Positions 4,145-50,854 of a stretch of DNA of 64,000 bases are shown here, in pieces. The notes beneath the pieces are model-generated. The model was not told the DNA's origin, made no database searches, and saw only the letters and a program-made list of their open reading frames with translations. Source of the stretch: Dichomitus squalens LYAD-421 SS1 (lineage: Eukaryota; Basidiomycota; Agaricomycetes; Polyporales; Polyporaceae). Positions within the stretch are counted from its first letter, which is position 1. Each line of letters starts with the position of its first letter. The stretch is taken from NCBI RefSeq assembly GCF_000275845.1, contig NW_006766884.1, forward strand, positions 1,478,594-1,542,593, written 5' to 3'. Both the position numbers and the translations under genes were made by a program.

Positions 4145-6098
4145 CTAGACGAACTTGTCCGCCTGGGAGCTGCCGTCGACGCTCTTCTTGTAGCTGTGCC
4201 CGAACGCGTGCCCGCCCTCCTTCTTCGCCTTCTTCAGCACGCGCGCGATCGCGTCGAGGCCCTTGTCCAGATCCTCCAGCGGCGGCCCGAACGAGAGCCG
4301 CACGAAGTGGTGGCACGGCGAGTGGAAGAGGTTCCGGCGGTGCGCGGGGTTGATGTCGAAGAAGATGCCGGGGATCACGATCGTCTTCTCCTTGAGGAGC
4401 TCCTCGAAGAACGTCAGGCCGTTGTTCAGCGGCGCGGGCAGGCGCTCGAGGTTCAGCCAGATGTAGAACGTCGCGACGGGCGGCACGGCGACGTGCAGCC
4501 CGAGCTCGTCGAGCCGCTTGAGCACGTGGTCGCGCTTCGCCTTGAAGTGCTTCTGGAGCGCGATCTTCTCCGCGTGCACGCGCTGGGGGTCGAGGAGCGG
4601 GACCGCGGCGAGCTGCAGGCTGTGCGGGGGCCGCGGACTCTGGTTAGGGGTGCTGGTCGTGGTAAGATAGAGGTTGCGGGACGTACGGGTGGTTGGCTCC
4701 GCCGTCAAGGAAGGACCCGGACTGCGAGAGCGCTGTGATCAGGTTCTTGGGGCCGAGGACCCAGCAGACACGCCAGCCGGGAAGGCGCCAGTTCTGGGAC
4801 TACAGCGTCAGTCCTCTGTGACGTAGCTCGTACATTACGAGCAGACTTCACCTTGGTGAGACCGTTCACGATGACGACGGGGTCGCCATTGACGTTGTCG
4901 ATGTAACTTGCGGAGGAGACGGACTTTCCGTACTCTTCCTCTTTTTCCGGGTACAGGTACCACGAGTAGAACTGCGGATGCGCGTACCGCTCCTCAGAAG
5001 AAGTCGTGCAGTATGACCCAAATAAGACTGACCTCGTCCAGGATGAGCGTCGTCGAGGCTTCACGGCAGGTGGCGACGAGCGACTTCAGTTCTTCGCCCT
5101 GGATAACCTGGCCTGTGGGGTTGCGCGGGTTGGACGCGATGATGACCTCAAGGCCCTGGGTGCGGATGTCGCGCTTGATTTGGTCCACGTCAAGGCGGTA
5201 CTGTTGCTCCTCATCAAGGCTGCGTGGAACCGAAAACCCGATGGCCAGTGAGCGTGAGGCGATCTAAATATGGCTGTGTGCGTCTTACGCGGTAGGCACG
5301 GGCACGAGGCGTTTGAACGCGCTCAGAACCTGATCGTATGCGGTGTAGTCGGGCACTTGGTACGACTGGATTGGTTACAGATCCGGGGTCAATACTTCGT
5401 GCATGCTCCACGGAACGGGAACGAGGCTATGCTTACGCAATAGACTTCACCGATGACAGCAGCGACGCGAGACAGACCAGCGCGACCTCCGGGAACGATG
5501 CAGACGTTCTCGTAAGTGTACTGGCTAATCTTGTCCTGGCGGTACTGTTGATTGTAGAGGTTGGCCACTGCCTCACGCAGCTCTGTTGCGATGGACGCAA
5601 AGATAGACAGATAGATGTGAATACGCGCTCATCCAGAGTAACCAGTGTCGTTGAGACACACTCACCCTTGACACCGGTGGTGGGCGCGTACTCGAGAGAG
5701 TCCTCGGGAAGAGGGATGCTCGTCGGACGCGGAGGCGCATCAGGGATGAGACCGACTTCGGGGGCACCCTGACCAAGATTAGCCCACTCGTGTGAGGATG
5801 CGTAGGAGAAGCCGTTGGCCATGGCACGGTCAGAGCAATAGATGACACCGGTGGAGCCCGGGTGCTCGATACCGGGGATGGTCTCCTCATCTGGGTTCAC
5901 GGTCTGAGGGAGGGCTGCGCCGCCCTTGGGCTTGTTGTGACCAGCGGACTGGCGAAAAAGCTACACGGACCCGGGCTGTGAGTCAAGCTACCTACTGAGA
6001 GCAGACAAGACACGTACCCTGTGGGCCTCTGAGTCCTTTTCATGACGGAAGTGTCTGACGACTTCGTGGACCTGTTGTTCGAAGCGGGATTCGGCCAT
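4145..6098 (-). CDS. Class I/II PLP-dependent aminotransferase
   Basis: This is a fold-type I pyridoxal-phosphate aminotransferase of the aspartate/alanine aminotransferase superfamily. It starts MAESRFEQQVHEVVRHFRHE at 6098. Next comes an N-terminal block with WANLGQGAPEVG and LPEDSLEYAPTTGV, then the substrate and PLP-ring region ASNPRNPTGQVIQGEELK, an LILDE strand, and the PLP-lysine region VNGLTK joined by an intron to NWRLPGWRVCW. The C-terminal domain has the carboxylate-binding arginine in HHFVRLSFGPP. About seven short introns were inferred. The domain order is complete. The amino donor is unknown; amino-acid catabolism is plausible given IVD and arginase nearby. It is convergent with the MFS gene and divergent from arginase, with about 560 bases between the two starts. 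Confidence 0.85.
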
Positions 6099-43361: not shown

Positions 43362-46300
43362 ATGGATCAGTACGTCCATTTGTTGGATCTGCGTACAGTC
43401 TTTCTTACCACCAAAACAGTCTTGAGCTCAACATTCGACAGCTCACTCTGTCTGACCTCGCCGAGAGTATTGGAGAGGTCAAGGGCGAAGGTGCCGATGC
43501 GGACGACGTCGTGTCTGCCATTGACCTTATCACATCAAGAGTTGAGACCCGACAGCTTTCCAAGGCTTCTGACGAGCAAGATAACCTCCCTGACGGCTAT
43601 TCTCTCAACGGGGACTCCCACGAAAACGGTGAAGCGGTAGCAGAAGAGAGGGTATTCATGGTGAGTAATCAAGCTGCCACGCCTTCATCTCGTCGCCTGA
43701 CACTCTCCAGTCGAACTCGCGGGTGCAATGCAACATTGGTTTTGCAGAGCTTGCCATTAACATGCCACACTCGCACGTCAAAGACACAGTCCCTGTCCTC
43801 GTCGATATCCTGCGTGATGTCCCATACATTGATTTTGACCGCTGCCTCTCGTGGGATGGTATGTTTCTGTACGGCTTCTGCGTGGATATAGTCACGCTGA
43901 GATCTTCTCTAGAATGGGCTATGCCTGATCAGCTGGTCTCTACCACCGTGACTGCTCTGCTTAAGATCGCAAGTGCTCATCCTGAGTATAGACAAGTTAC
44001 TTTCGACGCCATCACGAACCTTGTGAAGGAGATTGTCCCTAGATTCCAGACTGAAGACTGTGAGTGGTCACTGTTAGTATACGCCACCATGCTAACTATG
44101 AACCCCAGCCTTTGACGTCCTGTCCCAATACGCTCCTGCTTTTCACGGACTATACAGAGCTGTCATCTCTATTCCCTTCGACTGGTCTCCCGAGGAATGG
44201 CGTTCTCTCGCCGAACCCCTCAACCAGCTCTTCTTGCCAGACACCATTGAGCGCCTCAACAAGCTCCCTATCGAGGCTCTGAGTGGATCCGGCGAGGATG
44301 TGGAGAAGATCACCTACGTTCAAACCCTCGTCTCTCGGTACATCTCTTGCGGCCGTCCCCTCACCGGTTACTTCATCGTTTGCTGCGTCATTGAGGCGAA
44401 ATGGACGATTCTCGCGCAGGCTATGAGCCGGACGTACTCGACAAAGGACATCGACGTGGCCCCCGCGCCGCAAGAGGCCGCAGCGGCCAACATTGCCTGG
44501 CAGAAGTTGTTGAAGTATCATGAACCAGGAAACGGCTTCACAGAAGAGAGTCAGAGGGTCCTTTTGCGAACGACTATGCGGAACGTTTTGCACATCTTCG
44601 CCACGCTGCTTGTACTGATTCAGGAGATGGACTCGGATCCGGCCGATGATAGCTACGCATGGGAGACCATGTCTGAAAGTCTGGTGCGTCACTTGGCAGA
44701 ATAATCTCACTAGTACAACGTCTGACGGTCTACCACGCAGAAACTTGCAGCCGTGTGCTGTGCCGCTCTGGACGAGTTGGATCCAGGTCTCTATGAACGC
44801 TTGAAGACACTTCTCAGTTCGGAGTCCCCCATTGTCGACAGCATGGTTCAGGAGGCTGCGCTAAAGTCGACCTCTATCCTCGTCCGGTGGTCGGTCTACA
44901 GCATTAGCCGGTCGGTGTACTCGACTGATCCTGTTATAGCTTCCCAGACATTGCCGCCCCTATGGCCAACCACCTGCGACGCTTCGTCACCTCACCGCTG
45001 TCGATTTTCGAATTTGAGTTCGCGTCCACTGCGCGTACGCCATCGTCTCTATTGGCCGCTGCAAGATGTCTTTCACTCTGCATCGACGTGGGTGGTGGTT
45101 CTCTATATGTCTACGTTCTATGTTGATATCAGCTATGCCACAGCTTGCTCCGGGAGACGACCTCATCATGTCTTACATGTACTCTCTGTTGAATTACATT
45201 GCAGCGACCAGCAAGGATATCTTCGAGACATCAAGCATCATTATGAACCTTGCGGACGTTCCCGACCTGTCCACTTTGCACTCTGTCGAGACCGGGTTGA
45301 GAGGCCTGTCGGAGGACGAGAAGCGTACGGTCGGCATCAGCACAATCTCAGTTGCATCGCGCCTCGCACTCGAGAACAAGAACGAGGAGGTCTGTCATCA
45401 ATCTTATGTACGAGATGATTGCGATATAACACCTTGACAGGTTACCCGTTTGACCATCTCGATGCTGCTACAACGGATGCGAGCCGCGGAGCCAACGGTG
45501 GAGGCCGCGATTGCGTACAATCTCGTTGACTTGGCCCTCATTGCGCCTCAGAGCGCTTTCGTCGATATCATACGTGCCTTCTCTTCAATCAATCGATCCG
45601 CAAACCTCGATGACACAAGGTTCTCAAACAATATGGTACGGCGTCTTTTCTATTGCACCATAGTAAATCGTCACTAAATAACTCTTTGCAGGTTCTTGCA
45701 GCACAGACGAGACTCGCGAAAGAGCTGAGGGGCCGCCCAGAGCTTTACCAGCTCTATCTGACAGAGCTACTGACCCTGTTTGCGGACAAGGGCGTCGCCA
45801 TCCAGAACGCTGCCATATCAAATCACCATGCTAAGGTCCGTCGACCCCAAAAAGAACCTTACGCCTCGTGCACGCAGCTATCTGACTTTGACCTCCTTAC
45901 GCAGCTAGAGGAGATGTCGGAGCAGCTCGCTTCCCTTCTTCTGCCCATCGACGCCCTCCTCAGCCACGAAGACTTCGAGATTGGCCCAGACGCCTCGTAC
46001 AATGTCGTCACGCTCTTCCGCAACATGTGGTTCCTCTGCGCCCTCTTCGGCTTCACAGCCCCAGCGACCCGTACACCCACCGCGATGGAGTGGCGCCAGC
46101 CCGCGCTCGCGCGCATTGCCACGCGCACTCCGCCAATCGTCCTTGAGGAGGCGCATGACACGATCGTAAGCGACCTCGAGTACAACACAGTCATTCGGCA
46201 AGAGTATGTCGAAACCGTCATCGCCAAGCCCCGGGCGCTGCTCACAAAGCATATCCCGCTCCGTGCGAGCGAAGTGCGCTACCTCCTGCCAGGGCAGGTG

Positions 46301-49300
46301 CTCTTCCTCCTCGCCATGCACGACGTTGAGAGCATGCGGGCCGCCGCCGGCTGCCCATCGTCACTCGTCACGTACTTCGTCAACAAGGGCATCAACAAGA
46401 ACACCGGCCTGTTGCAGTGCATGGAGGCTGTTGCAGAGAAGGTCATCAGGGGCGCGATCTCTGACCTGAACGGCCAGGCGGCGAAGCAGGCGCTGCCGAG
46501 TGGATTGTCGATGGAGCTCCGCGCGCTGCTTGTGGCGAGCACGCATCGGATCCTCAAGGCGCGGGAGATCGCTGCGCGGTACTTGAACAGGCTGATCACG
46601 TCGTTCCCTTCTCTCATGTGCGACCCGCCGTTGGTGTTCGCAATCCTTGAGGTATTGACGCTGCTGCGCCGCGCAACGGAGAACGAATTCTTGGATGAGG
46701 TGTGTGGGAATGCTAGCGCACTACTTGACAAGCTGATGACGGCCTGGACTGCAGGACAACCCGACATACACCTACTACTCCGACCGTGCAGACTTCACGC
46801 TCCAGCTTACCGATAACTACGAGGCGCGGAACCAGATGCTTTCCCAGCTTCAGCGGGAAGCGAGCACGTGGTTCGAGCTTGCGCTCAGCAGAGCTCCCAT
46901 TGAGCTGCACTCGACACTTCAGGTAAGAAATGTTGCATGGTGGCTGGACACTCCGGTGTTTCTGAAAGCAATATCCAGAAATACCTGGCGACGGTCCCGA
47001 ACTCGTCGCTCATGGAGTCCTGCGAGCTCGGAGCGTCAATCGCCCTCAATTGGGCGAAGGCAATCGGTCCGATCGAAAGAAAGCTTGGTAAGTTCGCAAA
47101 ATACTTAGGTATACCCCGTGTCTCACTTTCTCCAACAGCGTCCCTGTCCTCTATGTCAATCTTCAAACCCGACCGCGCGAAGACCCTAGCAAACCAGCTA
47201 GCGTCTAAGGGATACTACACGGGCGAAGCAGCGGGCTTTAAGTTTGGTCGTGCTAGCGGTGATTGTGGCATATATCAAGTCGTTTCCATATCGCTGATAG
47301 ATCACCTTGTTAGGACTGGATGGATTGGATGATCCGTTGTCCTTCGTGCCGAAGCGAGAGATCACGCTGCTCAAGAAGCGGATTGCGGATGCTATCACCT
47401 CGATCCGAGACAAGACGAATACATTGACGGTCGCGGATCTCAAGCGCCTCCTGTTCCGTGCTGCATCGACTCTCATTTTCCTCGAAGAGGTGACTTAAAT
47501 ATGTACAATCTCCTGTTCACGGGGTTTGACACTGGCTGTAGTGGGACCACGATTTGGCACACTACCTTGTGGCTCTACCATTCGAAGCATTTACCCAGGC
47601 CTCCATCTCTGCCGGCATCGAGTGCTGGTCCTGGGTAATTGCAGAGAAACCCACTTTTGAGGTCACTCTCATGTCGGAAATCGCCGCAGCTTGGGATGCC
47701 AGCATCAAACATGGTAAAGGCATGTTTTCCAAGAGCCAGAAGTGAGTTCAGCACGCCACCTCTGCTCGTCTTCTTGCTCAAGCCTGTCGTGTTATAGTTA
47801 CGTTGATCCGTTTTTGCAGGAAGTACAGTACAGCCCGACAGACAAAGCTACCATAGACCGCCTCACAAGAACCGCTGCAAGACTGATCACTCCTCACGGG
47901 CTCATCCTCCAGCTTCTGTTCAGCAGGTTGCAAGCTGCGAGGTATCGGAGACCTGGATTGATGCTGCTATTTCAACGGCTAGCCCTTTCCTCCGCTCGCG
48001 CGCACGAGACCATGTCGTGAGTACACGTGGTGATCTGTGATGTCCTCTATTGAATTCCCCGCAGAACGCATCCCCTGGCTCGCGAAGCTCGCTTCTCATT
48101 CCTACTCTTCGGGTTCGAAGTACTCAAGAGCTCATTTCTTGACGTCTTCTGTGAACACCAGCTGCGAACCAGTCTCTATAACGCAGCCTATTCTTGGTTC
48201 GCCGTGCGGCCACAGTAGGTCTTTGCCTATTTCGATGCCTCAGGCGAAGAGATTGACCGTGTTTACCAGATGGTCGTATGGCTCGAATCGAGTGCAGGTC
48301 GACGCAGATATCAAGTTGTTGTCTGAGTTTCTATCCTATCTGCAAGCAGACTCGATCAGGGGTTATGCGCCCATTTCGAGCCTTGCGCCAACGCATGCCC
48401 CAACTCAGGCTCCTTGTATGTGCTTTGCTCTAAGTACCGGAATCGTCAACCTCAACCGAACATTACTCGCAGACTATATCGCCGCTCTCAAGAATCTAGG
48501 ACTGCCTCTCAGGCTTCTGGTTGAGAATGAAGTATTCCGCTTGACTGTCTGGGGCAATCCCGTCAACGATACAAAGCGGGGACAGGACCACATATGTCTT
48601 GTAGAGAAAACGATGCTAGACGTGGGTCGCACTCTGTTACGATGATTGCTGATTGCGCATTGACGACGATCGTACAGAACGCTTGGACAGCTGCCATCCG
48701 CAGAACTTGGAACATCGACCCTGCTATCGCCGTCTACATGGCTGAGCGATTCAGTCAGCCAGCAGTGCAGACTGCCGTTAGTAGCCTAGTGCGGTCGAAT
48801 ACTCGAGACGTTCTGGACGTTCCCGAAGGCCTTCACTTCCTTGTAACCGAAAGCCTTGGCGCGAGTGTTCAACGCGATCTAAGGGTATGTTGCATTTGTT
48901 GTCTTCACTTGAGATGAAGCCGACTAGAGTGTACTTCAGTACCTACTCCTCTGGGCCCCTGTTCCTCCAGTGCTCGCTATCACCTTCTTCGAACGCCGCT
49001 ACAACAACCATCCTCAGTTGTTACAATATGCTCATCGGGTACTGGAGCAACATCCCGTGGACTTGACGTTCTTCTTCGTTCCGCAAGTCGTACAGGCCCT
49101 TCGATACGATGATCTGGGTATGTGAGGGCGCTGGACCCTGCCGAAAGCAAGTTGACCATTTTGTCAGGCTACGTCGCACGCTTCATCTTTGAGACCGCAA
49201 AAATCTCGCAACTTTTTTGTCATCAGATCATTTGGAACATGAAGGCCAACTGCTATAGGGATGACGCTGGGGAACAAGAGGACCCGATGAAACCTACTCT

Positions 49301-50854
49301 GGACCGGATGACTGATATGGTTGTCGACTCGCTGTCGGGCGAGGCGCGTGCGTTCTACGATCGCGAATTCGGCTTTTTCAACGAAGTTACCTCTATCTCG
49401 GGCAAGCTCAAGCCCTTCATCAAGAGGACGAAGCCGGAGAAGAAGGTACGTAACTGACTTCATTATGACGAGCTGGAAGGAGATATATCTACTTGTGACC
49501 CATAGGCAAAGATCGACGAGGAAATGGCTAAGATCGTAGTCCAAGTCGGTGTATACCTTCCGAGCAATCCGGACGGCAAGGTCATCGACATCGATAAGAA
49601 GTCCGGACGACCGCTCCAAAGTCACGCGAAGGCAGGTCTCCAGTGAGCGTCTTCCCTAACTAATGCTGATTGCAGATAATAGGCGCCCTTCATGGCTACC
49701 TTCAAGGTGCGCAAGGAGCGACTGGTCGTCAAGGGCTCTTCCGACAATATTCTGGATGCGGATACCCAAGGCCAGGAGGAGACCGAGGAGTATGACATCT
49801 GGCAGCAGGCTATTTTCAAAGTCGGAGACGACTGTCGTCAAGACGTTCTCGCTCTCCAGGTCATAGCGATGTTCAAGAACATATTCACGAGTGTTGGACT
49901 GACCCTCTACGTCTACCCTTACCGCGTGACGGCCACTGCTCCTGGTGTAAGTTGCCACCACACACTCCAGTGATAATCGCTGACTCGTAGCACCATAGTG
50001 TGGTGTCATTGATGTGGTGCCTAATGCAACATCTCGTGATGAGATGGGTCGAGCGAAGGTCAATGATCTCCTCGATTTCTTCGTCGCCAAATACGGCGGA
50101 GAGGACACGGTGGAGTTTCAGAAAGCTCGCCTGAATTTCATTCAATCCATGGCGGCCTATTCTGTGGTGTGCTACATCCTGCAGGTCAAGGATCGCCACA
50201 ACGGGAACATCATGATCGACGGAGAGGGCCATATCGTCCACATTGGTAGGCGCTCAAATATCCCTCTGTTCAAGGCACATCGTTGATTCGTCTCGTTGCA
50301 GATTTTGGCTTTCTATTTGACATAGATGAGTCCTGGCACATATGGCGTTGGGATATTGGCTGACATTCTCTCTTGTGATCTCTCTACGTCCTGGAGTGAG
50401 TCGCTTCGCTATTGATCCTACTAACCGCCATTGACCACGCGACGCAGGGTGTCAAATTTGAGCCGAACTCTTTCAAGCTCACGCACGAGATGGTTGTCCT
50501 CATGGGCGGACGGACCTCGCAAGGTTACCAACTCTTCCAACAGTTGACAGTGAAGGCGTTCTTAGCTATACGGCCGCATGCCGATCAGCTTGTCAGCACG
50601 GTACAGCTGATGCTTGACACTTGCCTTCCATCCTTCAAGGGGGAGCCCACGATCCGTAGGCTCAAGGAGCGTTTCGCGCTGCACTTGAATGAGCGTCAAG
50701 CAGCGGAGTACATGATGTCTATTGTGAGGAACGCGTACGAGAACGTGCGGAGCACTGTGTATGACGAATTCCAGAGGGTACGTGCATCGAATTCATTGCA
50801 TTGAAACCCATCTCACACCTCGTATAGCTCCAAAATGGCATACCATACAAGTAG
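43362..50854 (+). CDS. STT4: Phosphatidylinositol 4-kinase STT4 (type III alpha)
   Basis: This large lipid kinase makes phosphatidylinositol 4-phosphate at the plasma membrane. A tiny first coding exon (MD plus part of a codon) is spliced to LELNIRQLTLSDLAESIGEV. A helical-repeat region of about 1,400 residues follows, then the lipid-kinase-unique segment (YVARFIFETAKISQLFCHQI). The catalytic domain has FMATFKVRKERLVVKG, FKVGDDCRQDVLALQVIAMF, LQVKDRHNGNIMIDGEGHIV (catalytic loop) and HIDFGFLFDI. After that come GGVKFEPNSFKLTHEMVVLM and the C-terminus ending LQNGIPYK at 50854. Most introns are GT-AG. Just after the DFG-containing exon the frame is kept only by an AT-AC intron (50326-50387) and an 8-nt exon (50388-50395) that restores IGPGG. 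About 25 exons are required. Confidence 0.94.
50388..50395 (+). other. STT4: 8-nt microexon of STT4 encoding part of GPG
   Basis: The sequence GTCCTGGA lies between an upstream intron with AT and AC ends (50326-50387) and a downstream GT-AG intron (50396-50447, branch-like CTAAC at 50421). Joined to the preceding ...ATA G and the following GGT GTC it yields I-G-P-G-G-V-K-F, the expected PI4K activation-loop start. No GT donor in the interval keeps the frame. Confidence 0.75.

Follow-up and report, generated by a model that had tools for sequence, protein, structure and literature searches.

The window analysed here, a 64,000-nt stretch of the Dichomitus squalens genome (40.3 Mb, 116 contigs), contains a gene for a PI4K-alpha type phosphatidylinositol 4-kinase, STT4. 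The question raised by this locus is whether its catalytic core is interrupted by an intron with AT-AC ends followed by an exon of only 8 nt. Our analysis confirmed this reading of the sequence. Very probably, it is a real U2-type AT-AC intron that is inherited across Agaricomycetes and lies in the part of the gene encoding the kinase activation loop, where a constitutive 8-nt exon and then an ordinary GT-AG intron come after it.

The deposited PI4K of Dichomitus squalens (P0001) could be spliced onto the window over its 1973 residues with 29 introns and two substitutions, so P0001 comes from another strain or allele. The kinase domain of the window gene matched PI4KA structures (E 1.5e-95), the alignment with which shows DFGFMFESSPGG, and the DFG...PGG activation loop of the orthologous kinase is present. 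When P0001 was compared with the whole assembly, 18 of the 23 matches lay in the window gene and the other five elsewhere at 31-44% identity; no second copy of STT4 was thus found in the assembly. The identity of the gene, originally proposed from the sequence letters, was borne out by the P0001 mapping, the structure match and the single locus. The 29 introns are 48-69 nt in size (median 55) and comprise 27 GT-AG introns, one GC-AG intron (49632-49682) and one AT-AC intron (50326-50387) by the P0001 mapping. G is found at +5 in 27 and T at +6 in 26 of the 29 introns, and CTRAY is present in 13. The features around the AT-AC intron are as follows.

43362..50854, + strand: STT4 (PI4K-alpha type phosphatidylinositol 4-kinase) gene from start to stop codon, 29 introns (P0001 mapping)
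50302..50325, + strand: exon upstream of the AT-AC intron, 24 nt, encoding most of DFGFLFDI and ending GACATAG
50326..50387, + strand: AT-AC intron, 62 nt, phase 1 (enumeration and P0001 mapping)
50326..50331, + strand: 5' splice site ATGAGT (P0001 mapping)
50360..50364, + strand: candidate branch site CTGAC with its A at 50363, 24 nt upstream of the 3' end
50380..50387, + strand: 3' splice site CTCTCTAC, pyrimidine-rich (window sequence)
50388..50395, + strand: 8-nt microexon GTCCTGGA, which completes G and encodes PG (P0001 mapping; protein GPGG)
50396..50447, + strand: 52-nt GT-AG intron, GTGAGT...CTAAC (50421-50425)...GACGCAG (P0001 mapping)
50448..50777, + strand: exon after the GT-AG intron, GGT GTC AAA TTT GAG... 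(P0001 mapping)

The upstream exon stops with TTTGACATAG at 50325, the AT-AC intron begins ATGAGTCC and has its 3' end CTCTCTAC at 50387, and the exon from 50448 starts GGTGTCAAATTTGAG. For P0001 to map, 50326-50387 (AT-AC) and 50396-50447 (GT-AG) have to be spliced out, and the 8 nt between them (50388-50395) have to be kept in the exon chain. The coordinates and letters given for the two introns and the microexon in the original prediction proved exact in the window sequence. If the AT-AC intron were retained, 12 foreign codons would follow FDI before a stop (FDI-DESWHIWRWDIG). The heptamer GTCCTGG occurs both inside the AT-AC intron (50330-50336) and at the start of the microexon (50388-50394), with no longer similarity seen.

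To determine whether the AT-AC reading is forced, we enumerated the structures that lead from the DFG exon to KFEPN by one or two introns, with GT-AG, GC-AG and AT-AC introns allowed. GT-AG introns alone gave 28 structures and a single in-frame stop-free product, which is without PGG. Together with GC-AG introns there were 151 structures and nine such products, and PGG was absent from all nine. When AT-AC introns were added, the 526 structures yielded 33 in-frame stop-free products, three of them containing PGG, and HIDFGFLFDIGPGGVKFEP was obtained from one structure only, which combines AT-AC 50326-50387 with GT-AG 50396-50447. This is the structure that the original prediction gave for I-G-P-G-G-V-K-F. 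The accompanying claim that no GT-AG intron could reach the next exon was slightly too strong, since one GT-AG structure (50347-50400) keeps the frame without a stop; we rejected this structure, as 23 unrelated residues replace GPG. Gene-finding rules restricted to GT-AG and GC-AG introns produced the wrong products DIDES... and DIDDRFGVKF on the window, of the same class as the models deposited for relatives. Within the 64-kb window, the pattern ATRAGT...CTRAY...YAC with a length of 45-100 nt occurred once on the + strand, at the STT4 intron; the - strand has three occurrences, which start from two donors. Genome-wide counts of the donor motif were uninformative. The degenerate pattern DFGFLFDI-G/ATRAGT (the slash marks a splice junction here and below) had no match in viral or prokaryote contigs, as expected.

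Relatives were collected by three protein searches, from which the best 120 of 3177, 367 and 3180 matches gave 167 STT4 clusters together. The query of the second search was on purpose a read-through model, which favours read-through models, and this search added 24 clusters, six of which have Asp after FDI (D-type). The expected reading after FDI in STT4 relatives is GPGG. Among the 167 listed clusters, 112 show xPGG, which is uninformative on the intron ends, 42 are D-type (FDI-D...) and 13 are without the HIDFG motif, because their exon has been skipped or replaced; in the first list (best 120 of 3177 matches) the corresponding numbers are 72, 36 and 12. Because the exon ends GAY-ATH-G, read-through into a GT intron gives GGT (Gly) and read-through into an AT intron gives GAT (Asp). 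Asp follows FDI in all 42 read-through clusters, whereas FDI-G without a following PGG, which read-through of a GT donor would show, was found in none of the 154 motif-bearing listed clusters. Back-translated from these misannotated proteins, all 42 D-type clusters imply A at +1. The residue after D is K in 16, E in 16, D in five, N in three, M in one and T in one. K and E correspond to GAT-AAG and GAT-GAG, and so to genomic G/ATAAG or G/ATGAG, while D and N (5 + 3) fit a predicted splice at the GT within ATRA/GT. The M (Amanita thiersii, DMF, which would be ATATG) and the T fall outside ATRAG.

The acceptor end can be read, likewise by back-translation, from RPGG, found in seven of the 167 listed clusters and preceded by L in six and by A in one. 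Since the microexon begins with G, Arg before PGG requires C or A, never G, as the last intron base; LRPGG and ARPGG would be as expected of YTA-CGT or GCA-CGT, that is YAC/GT, A at -1 being allowed too. Both intron ends are visible in three proteins, from Trametes punicea (P0008), Russula (P0121) and Mycena (P0140). The STT4 model of the last (Mycena sp. CBHHK59/15) seems to keep the whole AT-AC intron in frame, as an insert of 24 residues, about 69 nt, running from D to R before PGG.

As an indel control, 165 of the 167 proteins were aligned over residues 1641-2003 (earlier gene-model numbering), P0090 and P0137 being skipped without an anchor. Residues 1880-1889, into which the AT-AC intron and the following intron fall, have 34 indels of at least 2 residues, and residues 1870-1879, which also include the position of the GT-AG intron 50246-50301, have 12; at three other intron positions, the GC-AG intron included, there are 3, 3 and 2. 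The control is not clean, since 56 indels lie in a loop of variable sequence (1720-1739) and 16 lie close to the last short exon (1990-1999). The GC-AG intron (AAG/GCAGGT...AATAG/GCG) is also required by P0001, and few relatives are disrupted at its site (3 indel events). All 17 proteins labelled 'lgn' show xPGG. Eight of them (P0019, P0036, P0048, P0073, P0106, P0109, P0165 and P0166), all with GPGG, lie on contigs 87-820 nt longer than the reading frame; these contigs are too short for about 29 introns of about 55 nt, and thus they are probably transcripts. Together with P0001, which needs the junction, they give indirect evidence that it occurs in RNA.

AT-AC introns are normally missed by ab initio gene prediction. 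Of the 126 listed STT4 clusters with Agaricomycete names, 54 have a damaged catalytic loop in the deposited protein (48 of 120 in the first list, which is unbiased), which suggests that the AT-AC intron of STT4 is often misannotated in Agaricomycetes. Such damage means that gene models in catalogues have to allow for AT-AC splicing.

The taxa were split by the names in the search tables; a look-up of order or class covered part of them. The 126 named Agaricomycete clusters listed comprise 72 xPGG, 42 D-type and 12 without the motif, and the 24 named clusters from outside the class (22 Tremellomycetes and two Calocera) comprise 23 xPGG and one without the motif. All D-type clusters are thus from Agaricomycetes, and they belong to nine orders: Polyporales, Agaricales, Boletales, Atheliales, Russulales, Hymenochaetales, Sistotremastrales, Hysterangiales and Cantharellales. 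In P0159 (Tremellales sp. Uapishka_1), the exon of the DFG motif is skipped in the annotated protein, as in several Agaricomycetes, and the AT-AC intron may extend into Tremellales. Cantharellus and Botryobasidium, which are placed in Cantharellales (PMC7550596), have GPGG, and in both the intron could be absent or GT-AG; in the D-type Cantharellales the donor end alone is visible. As D-type clusters in Cantharellales and in the other orders span the base of the class, the AT donor was most simply present in the class ancestor. Agaricomycetes are given an age of 280 Mya in PMC7550596 and the split of Cantharellales is dated to 243 Mya in PMC9935835, and by these published dates the AT-AC intron probably goes back to the base of Agaricomycetes, about 240-280 Myr. 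Its traces in wrongly predicted proteins thus point to retention by mushroom-forming fungi over a span of well over 200 million years. The original prediction had treated the donor as a local change of G1 to A. This does not agree with A at +1 being seen, as a read-through Asp codon, in 42 of the 167 listed clusters and across nine orders; it is hardly a strain mutation, and AT-AC looks ancestral for Agaricomycetes.

The same data bear on several other explanations. It is highly improbable that a GT-AG intron received its AT-AC ends through sequencing errors in the assembly, or through a strain mutation: two substitutions would give GTGAGT and CTAG, and P0001 is from another strain or allele, but errors are unlikely to have hit, independently of each other, just the first base and the last, and A at +1 recurs in the 42 listed clusters of other species while G at -1 is excluded in seven. 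That the segment is an unremoved insertion in a broken gene whose kinase has been lost is scarcely credible, for although read-through reaches the stop after FDI-DESWHIWRWDIG, the assembly has this single STT4 locus, 1971 of 1973 residues are identical to P0001, and a donor, a branch site and a pyrimidine-rich acceptor are all present. The intron might also be real, with AT-AC ends that arose several times in parallel from GT-AG within Agaricomycetes. Such parallel origin would accord with the GPGG of some Cantharellales and with the fact that in most relatives the donors alone are visible; every origin, however, requires paired changes at both ends, and the donor ATRAG recurs across the nine orders, so that we consider repeated origin quite unlikely and favour common descent.

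The identity of the spliceosome was judged from the intron signals. AT-AC ends are characteristic of some U12-type introns, and minor snRNA genes were detected in one fungus, Cutaneotrichosporon oleaginosum, according to Frey and Pucker (PMC7072748). However, the consensus for U12 introns is RTATCCTT at the donor and CCTTAAC at the branch site (PMC2846911, PMC3033335), from which the STT4 intron deviates at +3 to +6 of its donor ATGAGTCC and in its branch site, CTGAC. Dikarya are reported to have no minor introns at all (PMC10639083), and Basidiomycota to lack U12 splicing (PMC2846911). Removal by the minor spliceosome is therefore very unlikely. The U2-type signals noted in the original prediction are indeed present: the donor ATGAGT has G at +5, CTGAC lies 24 nt before the end, and the 3' end CTCTCTAC is pyrimidine-rich. 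The donor bases GAGT at +3 to +6 are also the commonest donor core in STT4 (6 of 29 introns). Rfam models detected U2 (five matches), U4 (two) and U6 (six) in the D. squalens genome, whereas U11, U12, U4atac and U6atac had no match, in a search that was silent in the control genomes and missed U1 too; likewise PDCD7 had no match in D. squalens and none in the controls. The lack of matches to minor-spliceosome components is only weakly informative, being consistent with absence. The six U6 matches are 117 nt long against a model of 105 positions, and fungal U1 may be too divergent for its model. A related scenario concerns the origin of the intron: an ancestral U12-type AT-AC intron may have gained G at +5 when the minor spliceosome was lost in Dikarya, and been locked by A1/C-1 coupling since. 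We regard this as rather unlikely; if true, the intron would be a stranded relic of minor splicing.

For a U2-type AT-AC intron, U1 and then U6 would recognise ATRAGT through positions +2 to +6 despite the mismatch of A+1, and the branch adenosine 50363 would attack at A+1. The pair of A+1 and C-1 would stand in for the G/G contact in the second step, with exon ligation at YAC/. In an essential gene, a change at one end would block splicing, which may explain why AT-AC persists with no easy drift to GT-AG. Mis-splicing at this site would destroy a lipid kinase.

Several features of this intron have counterparts in known systems. The animal sodium-channel U2-type AT-AC introns (e.g. SCN4A intron 21) share with it AT-AC ends and G at +5, and are described as removed by the major spliceosome (PMC2831892). 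The same paper speaks of a 'trap', in which both ends must change at once; this would fit the STT4 intron, and could be tested by comparing many sequenced mushrooms. A U12 origin has been proposed for the sodium-channel introns, in animals that keep the minor spliceosome, while the group of D. squalens is reported to be without it; the STT4 intron would be a class-wide, very old U2-type AT-AC intron in fungi reported to be without that machinery. The STT4 intron further differs in its length of 62 nt and in the 8 nt of the next exon. In budding yeast, AT-AC junctions are reported in the SUT635 protointron, as an alternative in RPL30 and in A1/C-1 mutants (PMC6726248), and AT-AC is reported as the most efficient pair after GT-AG (PMC6726248, crediting Parker and Siliciano 1993). 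Use of A+1 with C-1 by the major spliceosome would be the likeness to STT4; according to PMC6726248, however, no standard yeast intron is normally AT-AC, whereas that of STT4 lies between coding exons of an essential gene.

Among fungi, AT-AC introns make up 0.019% of annotated introns (PMC7072748). The polypore Ganoderma lingzhi has 13 annotated among about 92,000, and PMC11590231 describes Sanger confirmation of one, in the zf-C4pol gene chr6g0094801. The G. lingzhi introns resemble the STT4 case in their polypore host and in having been missed by the original gene set, but the confirmed one is in another gene. In the filamentous fungus Trichoderma virens, the microexon of Xlr2 is likewise a coding exon of very small size; its inclusion is regulated (PMC11121469), while the STT4 microexon is needed for the activation loop. 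STT4 is not named in the titles and opening abstract lines found on fungal, basidiomycete, mushroom or U2-type AT-AC introns, and no paper joining a phosphatidylinositol 4-kinase with an AT-AC intron was found outside the subscription literature. U2-type AT-AC introns are already known; what is unusual is that one should persist throughout a class, next to an 8-nt exon and in a gene that is essential.

Other AT-AC candidates were also detected in the D. squalens genome. A call in REV3 (L025 3921-3990) was rejected because it looks like a model error, the open frame running through as SLYPSIMIAYNYCYSTCLGR. In the DNA polymerase delta gene (L026), which was found by a PF14260 match, a candidate lies at 4581-4641 (C5:539080-539140) and reads ATATGTTC...CCCTAAC...GACAC. 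Its removal yields KVRGLFERGE, to be compared with KLRTAFERGH in the solved chain 3iay. There are 27 single-intron structures at this site, five of them in frame, and the two of these that are GT-AG delete VRGLFE or more. The polymerase delta intron is thus likely, though not certainly, real. Its donor ATATGTTC and branch site CCCTAACT resemble those of a U12 intron with +5 and +6 changed, and judged by these motifs it looks even more like a converted U12 intron than the one in STT4. If both are relics of this kind, they may belong to a small group of such introns in Agaricomycetes.
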